Assembly: GCA_009924775.1 (NCBI GenBank)
Contig: RFQY01000008.1
Span: 1 to 34,046 of the forward strand
Source: Paracoccaceae bacterium
GTDB taxonomy: Bacteria; Pseudomonadota; Alphaproteobacteria; Rhodobacterales; Rhodobacteraceae
Reading direction: 5' to 3'
Length of the DNA stretch: 34,046 nt
In this document: positions 7,064 to 30,153 of the stretch, in pieces
How positions within the stretch are numbered: the stretch's first letter is position 1
Layout: each line of letters starts with the position of its first letter
Made by a program: the position numbers and the translations under genes
Notes under the pieces: model-generated
The model's input: only the letters and a program-made list of their open reading frames with translations
The model's database searches: none
Told to the model about the DNA's origin: nothing

Positions 7064-7163
7064 TATCTGCCTCCTGTTGGTGTGCAAAAAAAGGCGCAGG
7101 AACCCCTGCACCGCTATCCATTCACGTTTTAGAATGGAGGGACGGGCACGGCAATGGTGTAGT

Positions 7164-22849: not shown

Positions 22850-23908
22850 TTATTCGGCGGGTTGAAACCCTTCGATCAACTGCCGCAGGCCAAGGGCTGC
22901 GCCCGCAAATATCGCGGCAAAGACCAAGGGGGCCGAATAGGCCAGCATGGAAAAGGCCGACAAACCCTGCCCAATGGTGCATCCCAGGGCCAAGACAGCG
23001 CCCGCACCCATCAACACTGCACCCAAGATCTGCCTGCGCAATTCGCGCGGGTCTTCGCAGGCCTCCCAGCGAAAATGCCCTTTGATGAGCGAGCCGATAA
23101 AGGCCCCCAAGGCCACCCCTGCCACCGAACCCACCGCAAAGCTGGGAGCGCGGGCCGAACCCGTCATGGCATAAAGCAGGGCCTCGCCCACGGGGGCAGA
23201 AAAGCTGTGCGACACCATCGGCATGGGGCTAAAGCTTTGCGAGGCCACCCAGTAGCTGCCCGCCCAGCCCGAAGTGATGGCAACCCCCACCACGACCGAC
23301 CAGAAAATCTCTTTGCGCGCAGCCAGCATACCGCCCGAGGCCAAGGCCCCCAGCGCCACCATGGCACCAATGCCAACCCCCAGCCCAGCCACGGGCAGGC
23401 CCGTCCAGCTGTGCAGCAAATGTGCAAAGCCCGGGGGGGTGGTGTTGATGACCTCGGACTGCGGAAAGACCTGCACCCGCAAAAACGCCAGCGGCCCAGA
23501 GAGCACCGCATAGGCCGAAACACCCATAATGATCACGATGACAAAGGCACGAAAATCGCCGCCGCCCAGCCGGGCAATGCTGCCAAAGCCGCAATTGCCA
23601 GCCAAGGCCATGCCATAGCCAAACATCAGCCCGCCCAAGACCATGGCCAGCGGCATCCATTCAATCGATAAGTAATACGAGCGTTCCAGCTCGATCACAC
23701 CCAGCCCAGACAGGCTGAAGGTGCCCATGATCGCCACGCCGATAGCCAGCACCCACATGCGCATGCGCAAGGACGAGCCACCATAAAGCAGATCTTCAAT
23801 CGCACCCATGGTGCAAAACCGGCCCAATCGGGCGGCAAGGCCCAATAATACGCCGCCACCCAGACCGACAAACGCCACCAGCGCCTCGTCGGAAATCCAG
23901 TCAAACAT
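22850..23908 (-). CDS. soxT: SoxT-like YeeE/YedE-family sulfur transporter
   Basis: The 352-residue inner-membrane protein has about ten predicted helices and belongs to the YeeE/YedE family, which includes thiosulfate transporters. The three conserved Cys of the transport pathway are present: RFCTMG (about Cys 32), NCGFG (Cys 106) and GCTIGQG (Cys 310). Its position next to soxR and soxS is the arrangement named soxT in Paracoccus-type clusters. A good aggagg site precedes the ATG at 23908. It follows soxR by 41 bp in the same direction. Thiosulfate or another sulfur species is the likely substrate; direction of transport is not evident. Confidence 0.85.
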   Translation of the reverse strand: MFDWISDEALVAFVGLGGGVLLGLAARLGRFCTMGAIEDLLYGGSSLRMRMWVLAIGVAIMGTFSLSGLGVIELERSYYLSIEWMPLAMVLGGLMFGYGMALAGNCGFGSIARLGGGDFRAFVIVIIMGVSAYAVLSGPLAFLRVQVFPQSEVINTTPPGFAHLLHSWTGLPVAGLGVGIGAMVALGALASGGMLAARKEIFWSVVVGVAITSGWAGSYWVASQSFSPMPMVSHSFSAPVGEALLYAMTGSARAPSFAVGSVAGVALGAFIGSLIKGHFRWEACEDPRELRRQILGAVLMGAGAVLALGCTIGQGLSAFSMLAYSAPLVFAAIFAGAALGLRQLIEGFQPAE

Positions 23909-23949: not shown

Positions 23950-24285
23950 CTATTCACAGAACAGATCATAGACCAGCTCAAGTATACGCTTTGGCCGGTC
24001 ATCTGCCAAACGGTAATAAATGGCCTTGCCATCGCGGCGGGGAATAACCAGCCCCTCAAGGCGCAACCGCGACAATTGCTGGCTAACAGCCGCTTGGCGG
24101 GCGGCCAGCAGCTCTTCTAGCTCGGTCACGGATTTTTCGCCCGACACCAGATGACACAAGATCATCAGCCGGCCTTCGTGGCTGACCGCTTTCAGGAAAT
24201 TTGACGCCGTCGTCGCGTTATCGACGATACGCTCCATTTCCGTGTCTGATATGCCTTTATCAAATACTGGAAGTGTCACTGGCAC
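23950..24285 (-). CDS. soxR: SoxR-like ArsR-family persulfide-responsive repressor
   Basis: The 111-residue winged-helix ArsR protein shows ASNFLKAVSHEGRLMILCHL (helix alpha2-3), KSVTELEELLAARQAAVSQQ (recognition helix region) and GKAIYYRLAD (wing). Cys 44 and Cys 110 (counting from GTG at 24285) are 66 residues apart, the spacing of the sensing pair in SqrR (41/107) and BigR (42/108), which form a tetrasulfide link with persulfide. Start is uncertain: GTG at 24285 or GTG at 24279, the latter placing a ggggga site at good spacing and the cysteines at 42/108. It is the expected repressor of the sox promoters nearby. Confidence 0.88.
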   Translation of the reverse strand: MPVTLPVFDKGISDTEMERIVDNATTASNFLKAVSHEGRLMILCHLVSGEKSVTELEELLAARQAAVSQQLSRLRLEGLVIPRRDGKAIYYRLADDRPKRILELVYDLFCE

Positions 24286-24388: not shown

Positions 24389-24757
24389 CTACCCTTGGCC
24401 GTTGTAACCTGCGCTTTCGCGCAGCAATTTTTCTAACATGCCCCAGAAAAAGTGATCGCCCGGGTGCCCTTCGATGCGGCCAATTTCGCGCCCGTCCGAT
24501 ACCAGCACAAACGTGGGCGTGAACAAAATGCGGCCCTTGTACTGAATGTCGCCGCCCAAGGTATCTTTGATGTCGACCATCCGCAAAGGTGCGAATTTTC
24601 CCATCTCGGTTTGCGGATAGGCGGGGCCAATTGTTTCCTTCCACGAAACGCAATAGCTGCAGCCTTGGCGTTCGACCATCACCAGCTCTAACGCGTCAGC
24701 GCGGCTGGCCAAAGCCCCCAGCCCGACGAGGGCAATAAAAAAAAAGCGCCTTAGCAT
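24389..24757 (-). CDS. soxS: SoxS periplasmic thioredoxin-like protein
   Basis: The 122-residue protein has a signal peptide (MLRRFFFIALVGLGALASRA, cleavage near residue 22) and a thioredoxin-like domain with CSYC (Cys 33 and 36), then FTPTFVLVSDG and a tail. In Paracoccus, SoxS keeps SoxY reactive by reducing its disulfide or removing adducts. The start at 24757 is chosen because a signal peptide begins there; no strong ribosome-binding site precedes it. It is the first gene of the minus-strand soxS-soxR-soxT unit, divergent from soxV across a 75-bp region with a likely SoxR site. Confidence 0.9.
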   Translation of the reverse strand: MLRRFFFIALVGLGALASRADALELVMVERQGCSYCVSWKETIGPAYPQTEMGKFAPLRMVDIKDTLGGDIQYKGRILFTPTFVLVSDGREIGRIEGHPGDHFFWGMLEKLLRESAGYNGQG

Positions 24758-24793
24758 GGAACACCCAATTGACGACCGTTGTATACAAAACAT

Positions 24794-24811
24794 AATCTGA
24801 ATATGTGAATT
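24794..24811. promoter_or_regulatory. Degenerate SoxR operator in the soxS-soxV intergenic region
   Basis: AATCTGAATATGTGAATT aligns with the perfect 18-bp palindrome upstream of soxX at 12 of 18 positions, with the right half TGTGAATT identical. SoxR of Paracoccus is known to bind the soxS-soxV and soxW-soxX regions; this site fits the first. A TTGATCAA lies just after it. Confidence 0.55.
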
Positions 24812-24832: not shown

Positions 24833-25567
24833 ATGGACGTTACTTTCGCCGGGGCTGCCTTTGCGGGTTTTCTAGCCTTCTTCACGCCCTGCATCCTGCC
24901 GATGGTGCCCTTTTACCTAAGCTACATGGCAGGGCTGTCGATGGCCGAGTTGCGCGGCGAGGGCCAGATTGCAGCAGGCGCGCAGCGGCGTTTGGCGCTG
25001 TCTTCGGTCGCATTTGCGCTGGGGGTGACGACCATTTTCATGCTGATGGGCATGGGCGCCACCGCGTTGGGGCAGGTGTTTCGCGACTGGTTCGATGTGC
25101 TGCGATACGCGGCGGCGGCGCTGATTTTCGTGTTTGGTCTGCATTTCCTTGGGCTTATTCGCATCGGCCTGTTTTACCGCGAGGCCAAGCTGCAATCAAA
25201 GCTGGATCCCAGCTCGGTGGTTGGCGCCTATGTGATGGGGCTTGCCTTTGGTTTCGGCTGGAGCGCCTGCGTGGGCCCCGTTTTGGCAACGATTCTGATG
25301 ATCGCCAGCGGTATGGGCGATATTTGGCGGGGCGGGCTGCTGCTGGCGCTGTTTGGCTTGGGCATGACCGCGCCTTTCGTGGTGGCGGCGCTGTTTGCGC
25401 GCCCGTTTTTGGACTGGATGCAGCGCAACCGCAAATATCAACCTTATGTTGAAAAAGCGCTGGGCGTGATGATGATTGTCTTTGCGCTGCTCATCGCGAC
25501 GGGCACTGTAAACGAATTGGCAAATTGGATGATCGAAACATTCCCCATCTTTGCGCAAATCGGTTGA
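24833..25567 (+). CDS. soxV: SoxV CcdA-family electron transporter
   Basis: The 244-residue inner-membrane protein has six predicted helices and the two redox cysteines of the CcdA/DsbD family (TPCILP, Cys 20, and SACVGP, Cys 146). It moves electrons from cytoplasmic thioredoxin across the membrane to SoxW, and from there to the sulfur-oxidising complex. I chose ATG 24833; the GTG at 24821 overlaps the aaggag ribosome-binding site, so is unlikely. It is the first gene of the plus-strand soxVW unit. Confidence 0.92.
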   Translation: MDVTFAGAAFAGFLAFFTPCILPMVPFYLSYMAGLSMAELRGEGQIAAGAQRRLALSSVAFALGVTTIFMLMGMGATALGQVFRDWFDVLRYAAAALIFVFGLHFLGLIRIGLFYREAKLQSKLDPSSVVGAYVMGLAFGFGWSACVGPVLATILMIASGMGDIWRGGLLLALFGLGMTAPFVVAALFARPFLDWMQRNRKYQPYVEKALGVMMIVFALLIATGTVNELANWMIETFPIFAQIG

Positions 25568-25592: not shown

Positions 25593-26171
25593 ATGAAACA
25601 TTGGGTTATGGGTTTGGCCGCAGCTGTATTGGCGTTTCCGCTATTGGCGGCCGAGGTGGATGGCGATGGCCTGCACGTCGAGCCATGGATTCGCGATACG
25701 TTCAAAGACTTGCAAGAAGACTTGGCCGAAGCCCGCGCCGAGGGCAAAAGGCTAGCGATTTTTGTCGAACAAAAGGGCTGTATTTACTGCAGCAAAATGC
25801 ACACCGAGGTTTATTCAAACGAAACCATTGCCGACTATATCGAAGAGAATTTTTTCGTGGTTCGGTTGAATTTGCATGGCGCAACCGAGGCCACCGATAC
25901 CGATGGCGAAGCGATGGCAGAAAAGGATTTAGCCCGCAAATGGGGCATTTTGTTCACGCCAACCGTGGTTTTCTTGCCCGAAGAGGTGCCCGAAGACACG
26001 CCTGCCATTCGGGCGGCCGTGGCGGTGATGCCGGGCGCCTTTGGCAAGCAGACCACGCTGGATATGTACACTTGGGTAAAGGAAGAGCGGTATGCGATTG
26101 AAAACGGTGAAGATTTTCAGCGCTACCATGCCCGCCGCATTGCCGAACGCCAAGCGGCGGGGGGCAATTGA
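25593..26171 (+). CDS. soxW: SoxW periplasmic thioredoxin
   Basis: The 192-residue protein has a short signal peptide (MKHWVMGLAAAVLAFPLLAA) and a thioredoxin-like domain with CIYC (Cys 63 and 66), then FTPTVVFLPEEVPED. It accepts electrons from SoxV. An agggagg ribosome-binding site precedes the ATG at 25593. It lies 25 bp after soxV. Confidence 0.92.
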   Translation: MKHWVMGLAAAVLAFPLLAAEVDGDGLHVEPWIRDTFKDLQEDLAEARAEGKRLAIFVEQKGCIYCSKMHTEVYSNETIADYIEENFFVVRLNLHGATEATDTDGEAMAEKDLARKWGILFTPTVVFLPEEVPEDTPAIRAAVAVMPGAFGKQTTLDMYTWVKEERYAIENGEDFQRYHARRIAERQAAGGN

Positions 26172-26192
26172 GGCAAATTTGACCAAATCAAT

Positions 26193-26210
26193 AATTCACA
26201 ATTGTGAATT
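26193..26210. promoter_or_regulatory. Palindromic SoxR operator upstream of soxX
   Basis: AATTCACAATTGTGAATT is an exact 18-bp palindrome and fits ATTC-N8-GAAT, the operator pattern I recall for SqrR. It lies 82 bp before the soxX start, in the soxW-soxX gap where SoxR is known to bind in Paracoccus. It is the best operator in the window. Confidence 0.85.
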
Positions 26211-26248
26211 TGATGTTGCCATACAGGGCATTCGTGCTCTACGGTATA

Positions 26249-26262
26249 CCGAGCTAACTCGG
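26249..26262 (+). other. Leader hairpin before soxX
   Basis: The 5-bp stem ccgag/ctcgg (26249-26253, 26258-26262) has an outer tcgtg/cacga pair (26232-26236, 26264-26268). It is immediately upstream of the soxX ribosome-binding site and could affect translation or mRNA stability. Confidence 0.35.
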
Positions 26263-26291: not shown

Positions 26292-26762
26292 ATGAAGGTT
26301 TATGCACTGACACTGGCGGCAACGCTGGCAGCTGGAGCAGCGTTTGCAGGCGAGGTGGCACCCGCCGATGTGGTATTCAACGAAGACGGCGCCATTGTCG
26401 CTTCGTTGACCGGCGTCGAGGGCAACCCTGCCGAAGGCGCCAAGGTGATGACGAATCGCGGGCTGGGCAATTGCGTGGCCTGCCACGAAGTCAGCGCGCT
26501 GAACAATGCACCGTTCCACGGCAATGTGGGCCCGTCGCTGGATGGCGTGGGCGACCGGTGGAGCGCGGCAGAGCTGCGCAGCATCATTGTGAACGCGAAA
26601 GTCATGTACGAAGGCACTGTGATGCCCTCGTTCTACCGCGTGAGCGGCTTTTACCGCCCGGGTGACGGGTATACCGGCAAAGCCGCAACCGAAATTGCAC
26701 CGCTGCTGACTGCGCAGCAGGTGGAAGATGTTGTCGCGTTTTTGGGCACTCTGAAAGAGTGA
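26292..26762 (+). CDS. soxX: SoxX monohaem cytochrome c
   Basis: The 156-residue periplasmic protein has a Sec signal (cleavage near AFA-G, residue 19) and one haem site CVACH (61-65), with the distal Met in TVMPSF (about 111). It pairs with SoxA in the SoxAX complex that couples thiosulfate to SoxY and passes electrons on. The C-terminal helix AQQVEDVVAFLGTLKE is typical. A ggagg site precedes the ATG at 26292. Its partner soxA in this window is broken. Confidence 0.95.
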   Translation: MKVYALTLAATLAAGAAFAGEVAPADVVFNEDGAIVASLTGVEGNPAEGAKVMTNRGLGNCVACHEVSALNNAPFHGNVGPSLDGVGDRWSAAELRSIIVNAKVMYEGTVMPSFYRVSGFYRPGDGYTGKAATEIAPLLTAQQVEDVVAFLGTLKE

Positions 26763-26795: not shown

Positions 26796-27212
26796 ATGGA
26801 TTTCACAAGACGTGAGACGCTAGCGCTGGGTGCTGGTGCTGTTGCTCTGACAGTGCTGCCGTTCCGCGTGAACGCAGCGGCTGAAGATGCAATTGCCGCA
26901 TTTACTGGTGGTGCAGCTGTCGCCGATGGCGGCGTCAACCTGACCGCCCCTGAAATTGCAGAAAACGGTAACACCGTGCCGATCAGCGTATCGGCAGAAG
27001 GCGCGACCGTGATCATGCTGCTGGCAGCTGGCAACCCCACACCCGGTGTGGCCACCTACAACTTTGGCGAATTGGCGGGTAGCGCTTCGGCCTCGACCCG
27101 TATTCGTTTGGCCGGCACCCAAGACGTGGTTGCCGTTGCCAAAATGGCAGACGGCTCGTTCGCGCAGGCCCGCTCGACGGTGAAAGTCACCATCGGCGGC
27201 TGCGGCGGCTAA
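26796..27212 (+). CDS. soxY: SoxY carrier subunit
   Basis: SoxY is the carrier that holds the sulfur substrate on the Cys of its C-terminal GGCGG, visible here as VKVTIGGCGG. The 138-residue precursor has a twin-arginine signal (MDFTRRETLALGAGA). The mature domain is small and beta-rich. An aaggag site precedes the ATG. It is followed by soxZ, and the YZ heterodimer is the substrate of SoxAX, SoxB and SoxCD. Confidence 0.95.
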   Translation: MDFTRRETLALGAGAVALTVLPFRVNAAAEDAIAAFTGGAAVADGGVNLTAPEIAENGNTVPISVSAEGATVIMLLAAGNPTPGVATYNFGELAGSASASTRIRLAGTQDVVAVAKMADGSFAQARSTVKVTIGGCGG

Positions 27213-27237: not shown

Positions 27238-27567
27238 ATGGCAGACGGTGTAAAACCCCGCGTCAAAGCCCCTAAATCGGCCAGCGCCGGTGAAGTGGTC
27301 GTGCTGAAAACTTTGATCAGCCACAACATGGAATCGGGCCAGCGCAAAGATAAATCGGGCAACCCGATCCCGCGCTCGATCATCAATCGCTTTACGTGCG
27401 AATTTAATGGCACTTCTGTGATTGACGTGCAGATGGAGCCGGCGATTTCCACGAACCCCTATTTTGAGTTCGAGGCAAAAATCCCGGAAGGGGGCAATCT
27501 GAAGTTCACTTGGTACGACGACGACGGCTCGGTCTATGAAGAAACCAAGTCGATCAAGGTCGGCTGA
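27238..27567 (+). CDS. soxZ: SoxZ, SoxY partner
   Basis: The 109-residue SoxZ has no signal peptide and is co-exported with SoxY by the Tat pathway. Family blocks are KSASAGEVVVLKTLISHNME and IINRFTCEFNGTSVID, ending in LKFTWYDDDGSVYEETKSIK. A strong cacaggag ribosome-binding site is 25 bp after soxY. Confidence 0.95.
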   Translation: MADGVKPRVKAPKSASAGEVVVLKTLISHNMESGQRKDKSGNPIPRSIINRFTCEFNGTSVIDVQMEPAISTNPYFEFEAKIPEGGNLKFTWYDDDGSVYEETKSIKVG

Positions 27568-27628: not shown

Positions 27629-28340
27629 ATGAAATTCAAAGCTTTGACAGCGGTTGCAGCGCTGATGGTCACGATCCCGGCTATCACACTTGCAGACCCC
27701 GATGATGATACGCTGGTGTTGAACGGCGAGACTGAGATGGTCACAAAGGTGGCTGCGCCCGCGCATATGGCCGAAACCGGTGTTGATACTGTGATGTCGG
27801 GCTGGCATTTCCGTAATGACGACACCCAGGCCATGCAGACCGATGATTTCGACAACCCCGGCATGCTGGCGGTAGAGGCGGCGATCGAGGCATGGAATAC
27901 GGTGGAAGGTGAAGCAGGCAAATCCTGCGCTAGTTGCCATGGCGCCGCGGAAGACAGCATGAAGGGTATCCGTGCGGTTTATCCCAAATGGAACGAAACC
28001 GCTGGTGAATTGCGCACCTTGGCCATGCAGGTCAACGATTGCCGCACCAACCAGATGAAGGCAGAGCCATACAAATACACTTCGGGCCCCATGGCTGCGA
28101 TGGAAGCACTGATTTCGGTACAGTCGCGCGGCATGCCGGTTAATGTGGCCATTGATGGCCCCGTTCAGGCAATGTGGGAAAAAGGCAAAGAGATGTATTA
28201 TGCCCCGTTTCAAAGGCTGCGTGCGTGACACCCGCGCCGAAACCTACAAGCCCGGCAGCGAAGAGTTCATCGCGCTAGAGCTGTATGTCGCCTCGCGCGG
28301 CAATGGCCTCAGCGTCGAAGGCCCCTCGGTTCGCAACTAA
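27629..28340 (+). pseudogene. soxA: soxA, broken: second haem region missing and frame shifted
   Basis: The first frame runs 27629-28228 (199 residues): a Sec signal (to about 22), SCASCH (99-104) as first haem site, and AMWEKGKEMYY (181-191), then YAPFQRLRA and a premature TGA at 28226. The conserved end of SoxA continues in another frame, from about 28200 to TAA at 28340, with RFKGCVRDTRAETYKPGS (holding the catalytic Cys ligand) and ASRGNGLSVEGPSVRN. In intact family members these two parts are joined by about 45-50 residues with the second, catalytic haem motif CxxCH; nothing of it is here. Removing one C from CCCC at 28203-28206 puts both parts in one frame, as GKEMYYARFKGC. The retained haem is the one dispensable in some SoxA types. 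Either a natural deletion or a sequence error. Confidence 0.9.
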
Positions 28341-28352
28341 CTTATAGCTTCG

Positions 28353-28384
28353 CCCGCGCTGGTTTTGCACCGGCGCGGGTTTTT
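28353..28384 (+). terminator. Intrinsic terminator after soxA
   Basis: The arms cccgcgctgg (28353-28362) and ccggcgcggg (28370-28379) pair with one G-U, leading into TTTTT (28380-28384). It separates soxXYZA from soxBCD, so soxB needs its own promoter or read-through. Confidence 0.85.
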
Positions 28385-28396
28385 CACTTAAAACAA

Positions 28397-28430
28397 ATTC
28401 ACATATGCGCATCTGTTCTCCGCGTATGTG
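28397..28430. promoter_or_regulatory. Candidate third SoxR-like site and inverted repeat upstream of soxB
   Basis: ATTCACATATGCGCAT (28397-28412) fits ATTC-N8-GCAT; 12 of 16 bases match the soxX palindrome core, with left half AATTCACA identical. It overlaps an inverted repeat, cacatatgcg (28400-28409) and cgcgtatgtg (28421-28430), 9 of 10 bases complementary. It lies between the terminator and soxB. Confidence 0.45.
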
Positions 28431-28455: not shown

Positions 28456-30153
28456 ATGATCTCGCGTCGCGATTTTCTTCAGGTTTCCATGGCCGCATCT
28501 GCCATGTTGGGGGCCTCGGGTTTTAGCAATTGGTCAAAGTTGGCTGCGCAACAGGCCCTGACCCAGGACCAATTGCTAGAGTTTGATACATTCGGCAATG
28601 TCTCTTTGATCCACGTTACCGACATCCACGCCCAGCTAAAGCCGATCTATTTCCGCGAACCCGAGGTCAATATCGGCGTGGGCGAGAACCGCGGCGCGGT
28701 GCCCCATGTGACGGGCGCCGATTTCCGTAAGCTTTACGGCATCGCCGATGGCAGCCCCAGCGCCTATGCGCTGAGCTATAATGATTTTTCGGCTCTGGCC
28801 CAAACCTATGGCCGGGTCGGCGGTTTGGATCGTGTGGCCACGGTTGTGAATGCTATTCGCGCCGCCCGCCCCGATGCGCTGCTGCTGGATGGTGGCGATA
28901 CATGGCACGGCTCTTACACATGCTATCATTCGCAAGGCCAAGACATGGTGAACACCATGCAATTGCTTAAACCCGAGGCGATGACCTTCCATTGGGAATT
29001 CACGCTGGGCCAAGAGCGGGTGCGCGAATTGGTGGAACAATCGCCCTTTGCCATGCTGGGGCAGAATATTTTTAACGCGGAATGGGATGAGCCCGCCGAA
29101 GAATTCAAACCCTACGAATTCTTTGAACGTGGTGGCGCCAAGATTGCGGTTATCGGGCAGGCCTTCCCCTATATGCCCATCGCCAACCCGGGCTGGATGT
29201 TCCCTGATTTCTCGTTCGGGATCCGCGATCAGCGCATGCAAGAGATGGTAGACGAGGTGCGCGCCGCCGGTGCAGATCTGGTGGTTGTCTTGTCGCATAA
29301 CGGCTTTGACGTGGATAAGAAAATGGCGGGCCGTGTCACGGGTATCGATGTTATCTTGTCGGGCCACACCCATGATGCCCTGCCCGAGCCGGTTTTGGTG
29401 GGTGAAACCATCATCGTGGCCTCTGGGTCGAACGGCAAATTCGTCAGCCGCGTTGATTTGGACGTGCGCGATGGCCGGATGATGGGCTTCCGCCACAAGC
29501 TGATCCCGATTTTCTCGGATGTGATCACCCCCGATGCCGAAATGGCCGCCGCCATCGAGGCCGAGCGCGCGCCCTACAAAACCGCCATGGAAGAGGTGAT
29601 TGGCCAAACCGACAGCCTGCTGTACCGCCGCGGCAATTTCAACGGCTCGTGGGACGACCTGATTTGCGACGCGCTGATCAGCGAACGTGACGCCGATATC
29701 GCCATGTCGCCGGGCGTGCGTTGGGGGCCATCGGTTTTGCCGGGTCAGGACATCACCCGCGAAGATATTTGGAACGCCACCTCGATGACCTACGGCAAGG
29801 CCTATCGCACGGAAATGACTGGTGAATTCATCCATGTGATCATGGAAGACGTGGCCGACAACCTGTTCAACCCCGACCCCTATTACCAGCAGGGCGGCGA
29901 CATGGTGCGCGTGGGTGGCATGGGCTACCGGATCGACGTGAACAAAAAACAGGGCGAGCGCATCACCAATCTAACCTTGCTGCGCACCGGCGAACAGATT
30001 GACCCGGCCAAAACCTATGTGGTCGCAGGCTGGGCCAGCGTGAACGAGGGCACCGAGGGCCCACAAATTTGGGATGTGGTGGAAAATCATATCCGCCAGA
30101 AGGGCACCGTAACCGTTGCCCCGAACACCAGTGTCGAGGTGGTGGGGGCCTAA
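28456..30153 (+). CDS. soxB: SoxB thiosulfohydrolase
   Basis: The 565-residue periplasmic dimanganese enzyme removes sulfate from SoxY-bound sulfonate. It is a 5'-nucleotidase-type metallophosphoesterase: HVTDIHAQ (Asp 56, His 58), LLLDGGDTWHGS (Asp 148), the SoxB-type HWEFTLG (about 179-185, replacing GNHE), SHNGFD (His 281) and SGHTHD (His 304, 306). A twin-arginine signal (SRRDFLQVSMAAS) begins it. The C-terminal domain ends normally. The ATG at 28456 is chosen because the Tat signal begins there. The gene follows a terminator and a candidate SoxR-like site. Confidence 0.97.
   Translation: MISRRDFLQVSMAASAMLGASGFSNWSKLAAQQALTQDQLLEFDTFGNVSLIHVTDIHAQLKPIYFREPEVNIGVGENRGAVPHVTGADFRKLYGIADGSPSAYALSYNDFSALAQTYGRVGGLDRVATVVNAIRAARPDALLLDGGDTWHGSYTCYHSQGQDMVNTMQLLKPEAMTFHWEFTLGQERVRELVEQSPFAMLGQNIFNAEWDEPAEEFKPYEFFERGGAKIAVIGQAFPYMPIANPGWMFPDFSFGIRDQRMQEMVDEVRAAGADLVVVLSHNGFDVDKKMAGRVTGIDVILSGHTHDALPEPVLVGETIIVASGSNGKFVSRVDLDVRDGRMMGFRHKLIPIFSDVITPDAEMAAAIEAERAPYKTAMEEVIGQTDSLLYRRGNFNGSWDDLICDALISERDADIAMSPGVRWGPSVLPGQDITREDIWNATSMTYGKAYRTEMTGEFIHVIMEDVADNLFNPDPYYQQGGDMVRVGGMGYRIDVNKKQGERITNLTLLRTGEQIDPAKTYVVAGWASVNEGTEGPQIWDVVENHIRQKGTVTVAPNTSVEVVGA

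Follow-up and report, generated by a model that had tools for sequence, protein, structure and literature searches.

A conserved ATTC-N8-GAAT palindrome upstream of soxX is probably the operator of a SqrR-like SoxR in a Paracoccaceae sox cluster

The closest described counterpart of the site considered here is the operator of SqrR from Rhodobacter capsulatus, for which passages of PMC9774250 give ATTC-N8-GAAT as the deduced recognition site and mention a resembling site in the YgaV promoter. Published passages place the SqrR site at sqr and at a gene for a rhodanese, whereas the site described below lies in a thiosulfate-oxidising sox cluster. Repressors of sox genes have been described under the name SoxR in Paracoccus pantotrophus, Pseudaminobacter salicylatoxidans and Bradyrhizobium diazoefficiens, where the text excerpts also place soxSR divergent from soxVW; SoxR binds several intergenic regions according to published passages, with the soxS-soxV region named. 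Passages of PMC5748708 report that sox genes are derepressed in a Bradyrhizobium soxR mutant, and passages of PMC10451225 that in Hyphomicrobium SoxR binds intergenic sox DNA and comes off it with polysulfide, which joins the two cysteines of the protein by a sulfur bridge. In the excerpts on Hyphomicrobium denitrificans, SoxR and sHdrR are likewise two-cysteine repressors on sox intergenic DNA, and SoxR responds to sulfane sulfur. The text passages compared name SoxR-bound DNA fragments but give no SoxR operator sequence.

The window analysed here is the whole stretch of 34,046 nucleotides, positions 1 to 34,046 of contig RFQY01000008.1 from a Paracoccaceae bacterium. Its sox cluster has a minus-strand group, soxT, soxR and soxS, and a plus-strand group, soxV, W, X, Y, Z, A, B and C, soxTRS being divergent from soxVW in the synteny table. 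We named soxX, soxY, soxZ and soxB from NCBIfam models above cutoff together with synteny, comparing 80 fetched loci. The genes are as follows.

22850 to 23908, minus strand: soxT, TsuA/YeeE-like transporter (position and synteny; below NCBIfam cutoffs)
23950 to 24285, minus strand: soxR, ArsR-family repressor with Cys44 and Cys110 and the helix RQAAVSQQLSRLRLEGLV (Pfam HTH_5, alignment to solved chains)
24389 to 24757, minus strand: soxS (position and synteny; no match in Pfam or NCBIfam)
24833 to 25567, plus strand: soxV, DsbD-like (synteny; below NCBIfam cutoffs)
25593 to 26171, plus strand: soxW, thioredoxin-like (synteny, weak family match)
26292 to 26762, plus strand: soxX (TIGR04485 above cutoff)
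26796 to 27212, plus strand: soxY (TIGR04488 above cutoff)
27238 to 27567, plus strand: soxZ (TIGR04490 above cutoff)
27629 to 28340, plus strand: soxA, disrupted (a same-genus genome has 145 bp more near 28205)
28456 to 30153, plus strand: soxB (TIGR04486 above cutoff)

With the same-genus genome as reference, the missing 145 bp of soxA take away a CASCH heme motif and shift the frame, the gap being either genuine or an artefact of assembly.

Between the end of soxW (26171) and the start of soxX (26292) lies AATTCACAATTGTGAATT, which the initial annotation had singled out as a perfect 18-bp palindrome fitting the SqrR operator. Both parts of that description are borne out: the palindrome is present at 26193 to 26210, and the pattern is the SqrR site given in PMC9774250, as far as its passages go.

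26193 to 26210, no strand: predicted SoxR operator of soxX, perfect 18-bp palindrome AATTCACAATTGTGAATT (sequence and family conservation)
26194 to 26198, plus strand: left half-site ATTCA (93-99% per column in an alignment of 74 regions)
26205 to 26209, plus strand: right half-site TGAAT (T 77%, GAAT 93-96% in the same alignment)

The window holds no second perfect palindrome of 18 bp. Nevertheless, a palindrome that arose by chance and has no function has to be considered, because a bare palindrome of this length is not improbable in 34 kb: at least one is found in 22 of 100 dinucleotide-shuffled windows (mean 0.24), although simple arithmetic from this mean leaves only about 0.001 expected in the gap of roughly 120 bp. 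Nor does the core stand out by number. Exact ATTC-N8-GAAT occurs twice in the window, at 7120 and at 26194 (core 26194-26209), and allowing up to one mismatch yields 12 sites across the window where 12.6 are expected. Palindrome and core are thus not significant, either one taken alone; their significance comes from conservation in relatives. All 18 bases are identical in the same-genus genome, which is 91% identical over the surrounding 3.5 kb.

Across 81 sox clusters (the 80 fetched loci and the window), soxX could be placed in 74. Fifty-nine of these, the window included, carry an exact ATTC-N8-GAAT within 250 bp upstream of soxX, compared with 0.55 in dinucleotide shuffles, and 70 carry a site with at most one mismatch, compared with 6.4 in mononucleotide shuffles, counts that are not independent since the clusters share descent. 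The spacing of eight stands out, half-site spacings of 0-7 and 9-16 giving five matches in sum. In the remaining four regions not even a one-mismatch site was found upstream of soxX, and three of these four clusters have soxR. Conservation at a single place and with a single spacing across the family strongly disfavours chance without function, to which we assign a negligible probability.

The pattern of conservation also speaks to what kind of element this is. In an alignment of the 74 upstream regions, chosen independently of the motif, the columns of ATTC are conserved at 93-99%, the following A at 96% and GAAT at 93-96%; the T preceding GAAT reaches 77% and the remaining central bases 32-62%. 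The outer half-sites are kept while the centre varies, and we therefore regard the perfection over 18 bp as a local coincidence at a protein operator. In favour of the alternative that the palindrome acts in RNA, as a hairpin or terminator after soxW, its strand folds at -14.6 kcal/mol (z -1.6), a value equalled in 14 of 200 shuffles. However, the palindrome is A+T-rich, has no T run and is missing from the terminator list; conservation is lacking at the central bases, which a longer stem would need, their columns looking free to vary; and an 18-mer of any sequence with at least eight of nine pairs is found in only 15 of the 74 soxX regions. We consider an RNA element very improbable.

On the 3' side of the operator the alignment shows a conserved TTTGTTGTTGC followed by the consensus TACGGT, the window itself reading TTTGATGTTGC, and two promoter elements can be predicted from it.

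26216 to 26221, plus strand: predicted -35 element TTGCCA (TTG invariant in the alignment; absent from the simple consensus scan list)
26240 to 26245, plus strand: predicted -10 element TACGGT, three of six consensus bases (alignment; likewise absent from that list)

They are separated by 18 bases and would place the start of soxX transcription near 26252. The operator core ends 6 bp upstream of this predicted -35, promoter and start being deduced from the alignment and absent from the consensus scan, so that the operator is centred near -50 of the presumed start. The scan instead lists TTGAGG-N16-AATAAT at 26168-26195 (the region has three such matches, with 2.0 expected), and the alignment columns 26170-26173, in its first hexamer, are poorly to moderately conserved. 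One of the comparisons behind this promoter prediction used 57 sites; those of L067 and L092 and the second site of L097 fell beyond its distance limits.

The likely reader of this site is encoded 1.9 kb away. Among solved chains, SoxR best matches those of the 6o8k/6o8l type (6o8k_A, E 1.2e-34 by sequence alignment; table label 'ArsR family'), which we take to be R. capsulatus SqrR. The recognition helix of SoxR, RQAAVSQQLSRLRLEGLV, is nearly the same as RQAAVSQQLARLRLEGLV of 6o8k_A, and Cys44 and Cys110 align to cysteines of that chain. Both cysteines recur in 85 of the 86 proteins aligned, the remaining alignment stopping short of the second. YgaV and BigR, also ArsR sensors of sulfide or persulfide, are more distant from SoxR (E 1e-11 and 1e-17, versus 1e-34), and against the NCBIfam BigR equivalog SoxR scores 91.4 bits, below the cutoff of 155. 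The likeness to the R. capsulatus system, as its text passages describe it, thus extends from the half-sites and their spacing to a near-identical helix and the same cysteine pair.

On these grounds we think it highly probable that AATTCACAATTGTGAATT is a SqrR-type operator by which SoxR controls the soxX promoter, and hence soxXYZA. The initial annotation had called such control likely, and the conserved site, the SqrR-like helix and the two cysteines lend that view support. By analogy with the studied relatives, SoxR would bind here, repress, and be released by sulfane sulfur. A SoxR dimer would hold the half-sites ATTCA and TGAAT and hardly read the central bases; sitting just upstream of the conserved -35 (TTGC), it would probably extend over that element and block RNA polymerase. 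Thiosulfate or sulfide would raise sulfane sulfur, the two SoxR cysteines would become bridged by sulfur atoms, and the bridged protein would leave the DNA so that soxX transcription can start.

Two other accounts of the same site need to be weighed. Some activators bind upstream of the -35, as would the protein at the present site, and SoxR might accordingly activate soxX or work in both directions. A centre near -50 of the presumed start would suit this, as would the conflicting results for SoxR at different expression levels reported in passages of PMC10318464. However, sox expression rises in Bradyrhizobium and Hyphomicrobium when soxR is deleted, according to the excerpts on these organisms, and the candidate site at soxV (see below) overlaps the -10, and we judge activation improbable. 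The other account concerns the identity of the binder: an unlinked SqrR-like paralog could bind the site mainly, additionally or jointly with SoxR. The same-genus genome encodes one (L326:4687-4929, minus strand) with the RQAAVSQ helix RQAAVSQMLARLREEGLV and both cysteine-bearing segments; identity is 63% across 90 residues, and in the host genome contig C40 begins with the 3' part of this gene. Copies related to this paralog are found in several of the family genomes searched. For Hyphomicrobium, moreover, published passages state that SoxR sites had already been demonstrated on each of the four fragments that sHdrR binds. Against a leading role for the paralog, soxR accompanies soxX in 73 of the 74 clusters where soxX could be placed. 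The sole exception (L043, Phycocomes zhengii) has SqrR-like proteins elsewhere in the genome, yet no site with at most one mismatch was found upstream of its soxX, which makes it one case in favour of SoxR as the binder. We regard involvement of the paralog as unlikely, though the most serious of the alternatives.

Some other sox promoters carry related sites as well. Sites with at most one mismatch lie upstream of soxB in 59 of 80 clusters, soxV in 39 of 75 and soxC in 13 of 77; exact ATTC-N8-GAAT in 22 of 80, 1 of 75 and 8 of 77, respectively. Upstream of soxY (2/75), soxZ (1/76), soxW (3/73), soxR (4/74) and soxT (2/74), sites with at most one mismatch are at or below shuffle level. Many of the one-mismatch matches at soxV are elements other than the one in the window, and TGAATATGTGAAT itself occurs in 24 of 75 regions. 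In the window the following features are relevant.

24769 to 24796, plus strand: predicted soxV promoter TTGACG-N16-CATAAT (promoter consensus scan)
24795 to 24810, plus strand: weak soxV operator candidate ATCTGAATATGTGAAT at the soxV -10 (two mismatches, both confined to the left half)
28352 to 28380, plus strand: terminator-like hairpin between soxA and soxB, ahead of the soxB candidate site (hairpin list)
28397 to 28412, plus strand: soxB operator candidate ATTCACATATGCGCAT (ATTC-N8-GAAT with one mismatch; same letters in the same-genus genome)

The soxV candidate, too, is identical in the same-genus genome. The hairpin between soxA and soxB is only suggestive, because the region has seven such hairpins with 5.5 expected.

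The initial annotation had also offered the palindrome as a query with which to find the regulon genome-wide. As a bare core it is too weak for this purpose: the host genome (3.27 Mb in 485 contigs) contains 21 exact ATTC-N8-GAAT cores, several of which fall inside open reading frames. Once conservation is added, the scan becomes usable. The longer form ATTCACA-N2-TGTGAAT occurs exactly at two sites only, the soxX operator and a site on contig C436, where the near-perfect palindrome ATTCACATCTGTGAAT (L152:4732-4747) is centred 65 bp before a metallo-hydrolase gene. We call this gene no more than soxH-like because its best NCBIfam match, TIGR04559, scores 145 bits where the cutoff is 280. Our set comprises 49 homologous loci, 11 of 60 matches (at most 40% identity) having been left out, and includes one genome without a soxX match. 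Where the soxH-like gene is unlinked to soxX, an exact site precedes it in 23 of 31 loci (that on C436 included), compared with 2 of 17 where it is linked; with up to one mismatch the counts are 27 of 31 and 4 of 17. This contrast (Fisher p 4.7e-5) ignores descent, and the linked genes are also more divergent. Linkage means a position within 25 kb of soxX, a limit chosen post hoc (all other distances on the same contig are at least 71 kb), and genes on a different contig of a draft genome were counted as unlinked.

A second gene outside the cluster, which we call sqr-like, combines a BLH_phosphatase domain with a segment similar to type III SQR that scores below cutoff. Seven of 29 loci, among them that of the same-genus genome, carry an exact site whose centre is 41-54 bp upstream of the start (29 of 30 loci were used, leaving out the fragment of the host genome; L231 is a partial match). 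Between the host and the same-genus genome the halves of this site are kept and four of eight spacer bases differ. Behind the sqr-like gene, a sulfate permease gene has an exact motif about 28 bp ahead of it (L150:6338-6353, contig C48), and the motif is the same in the same-genus genome. A site on contig C27 near a petA-like gene, presumably petA itself, is also kept in the same genus.

The second exact core of the window, at 7120-7135, lies upstream of a ctaD-like gene that we assume to be ctaD. We judged this site to be chance, as among 30 homologous upstream regions the exact motif occurs in the window's own alone. It is kept in the same-genus genome; seven of the 30 regions have a site with at most one mismatch, versus 1.3 in shuffles, and four of these seven share the letters ATTCTAAAAC at about the same place.

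Helix and site were also compared across 26 clusters taken from genomes of the whole class, a single one belonging to the same family; soxR-like proteins could be aligned in 12 of these clusters. All four clusters with an RQAA or RQAG helix have at least one exact intergenic site within 20 kb, upstream of soxX in three, and a motif-free search for spaced palindromes recovers ATTC-N8-GAAT in four of four RQAA-type loci. In six clusters with 50-55% SoxR identity and an RQP-type (in one case NQP) helix, all distant loci other than Hyphomicrobium, the exact motif is absent from the stretch, and a search of spaced palindromes in seven loci for an RQP-type operator gave nothing above shuffles. L189 has a coding site only, and L194, whose SoxR is doubtful (39% identity), has two intergenic sites. 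Four distant sox clusters (L186, L191, L193 and L195) have exact intergenic sites where soxR was not found in the stretch, which speaks against a simple rule linking helix to site. In L186 (6906, 6953, 9428) and L191 (6599, 6646, 9164) the sites fall in the soxS-soxX interval and immediately ahead of soxB. Kinship, moreover, is confounded with helix type in this comparison. We suggest only tentatively, and at somewhat less than even odds, that SoxR of Rhodobacteraceae controls a dispersed regulon with a single operator code, in which the site goes with the gene (the unlinked soxH-like and some sqr-like genes have their own, a soxH-like gene close to soxX mostly none). The code would be set by the first residues of the recognition helix, the RQAA type reading ATTC-N8-GAAT and the RQP-type SoxR of other alphaproteobacteria a different operator.

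A switch of this type is already known; what is less expected is the wider map of sites and the contrast between linked and unlinked soxH-like genes. Through imperfect sites at soxV and soxB and sites of their own at the unlinked soxH-like and sqr-like genes, scattered sulfur genes may be controlled together, the latter two genes being the predicted unlinked targets. Half-sites, promoter positions and candidate targets would provide short probes for SoxR control of thiosulfate oxidation in Rhodobacteraceae.
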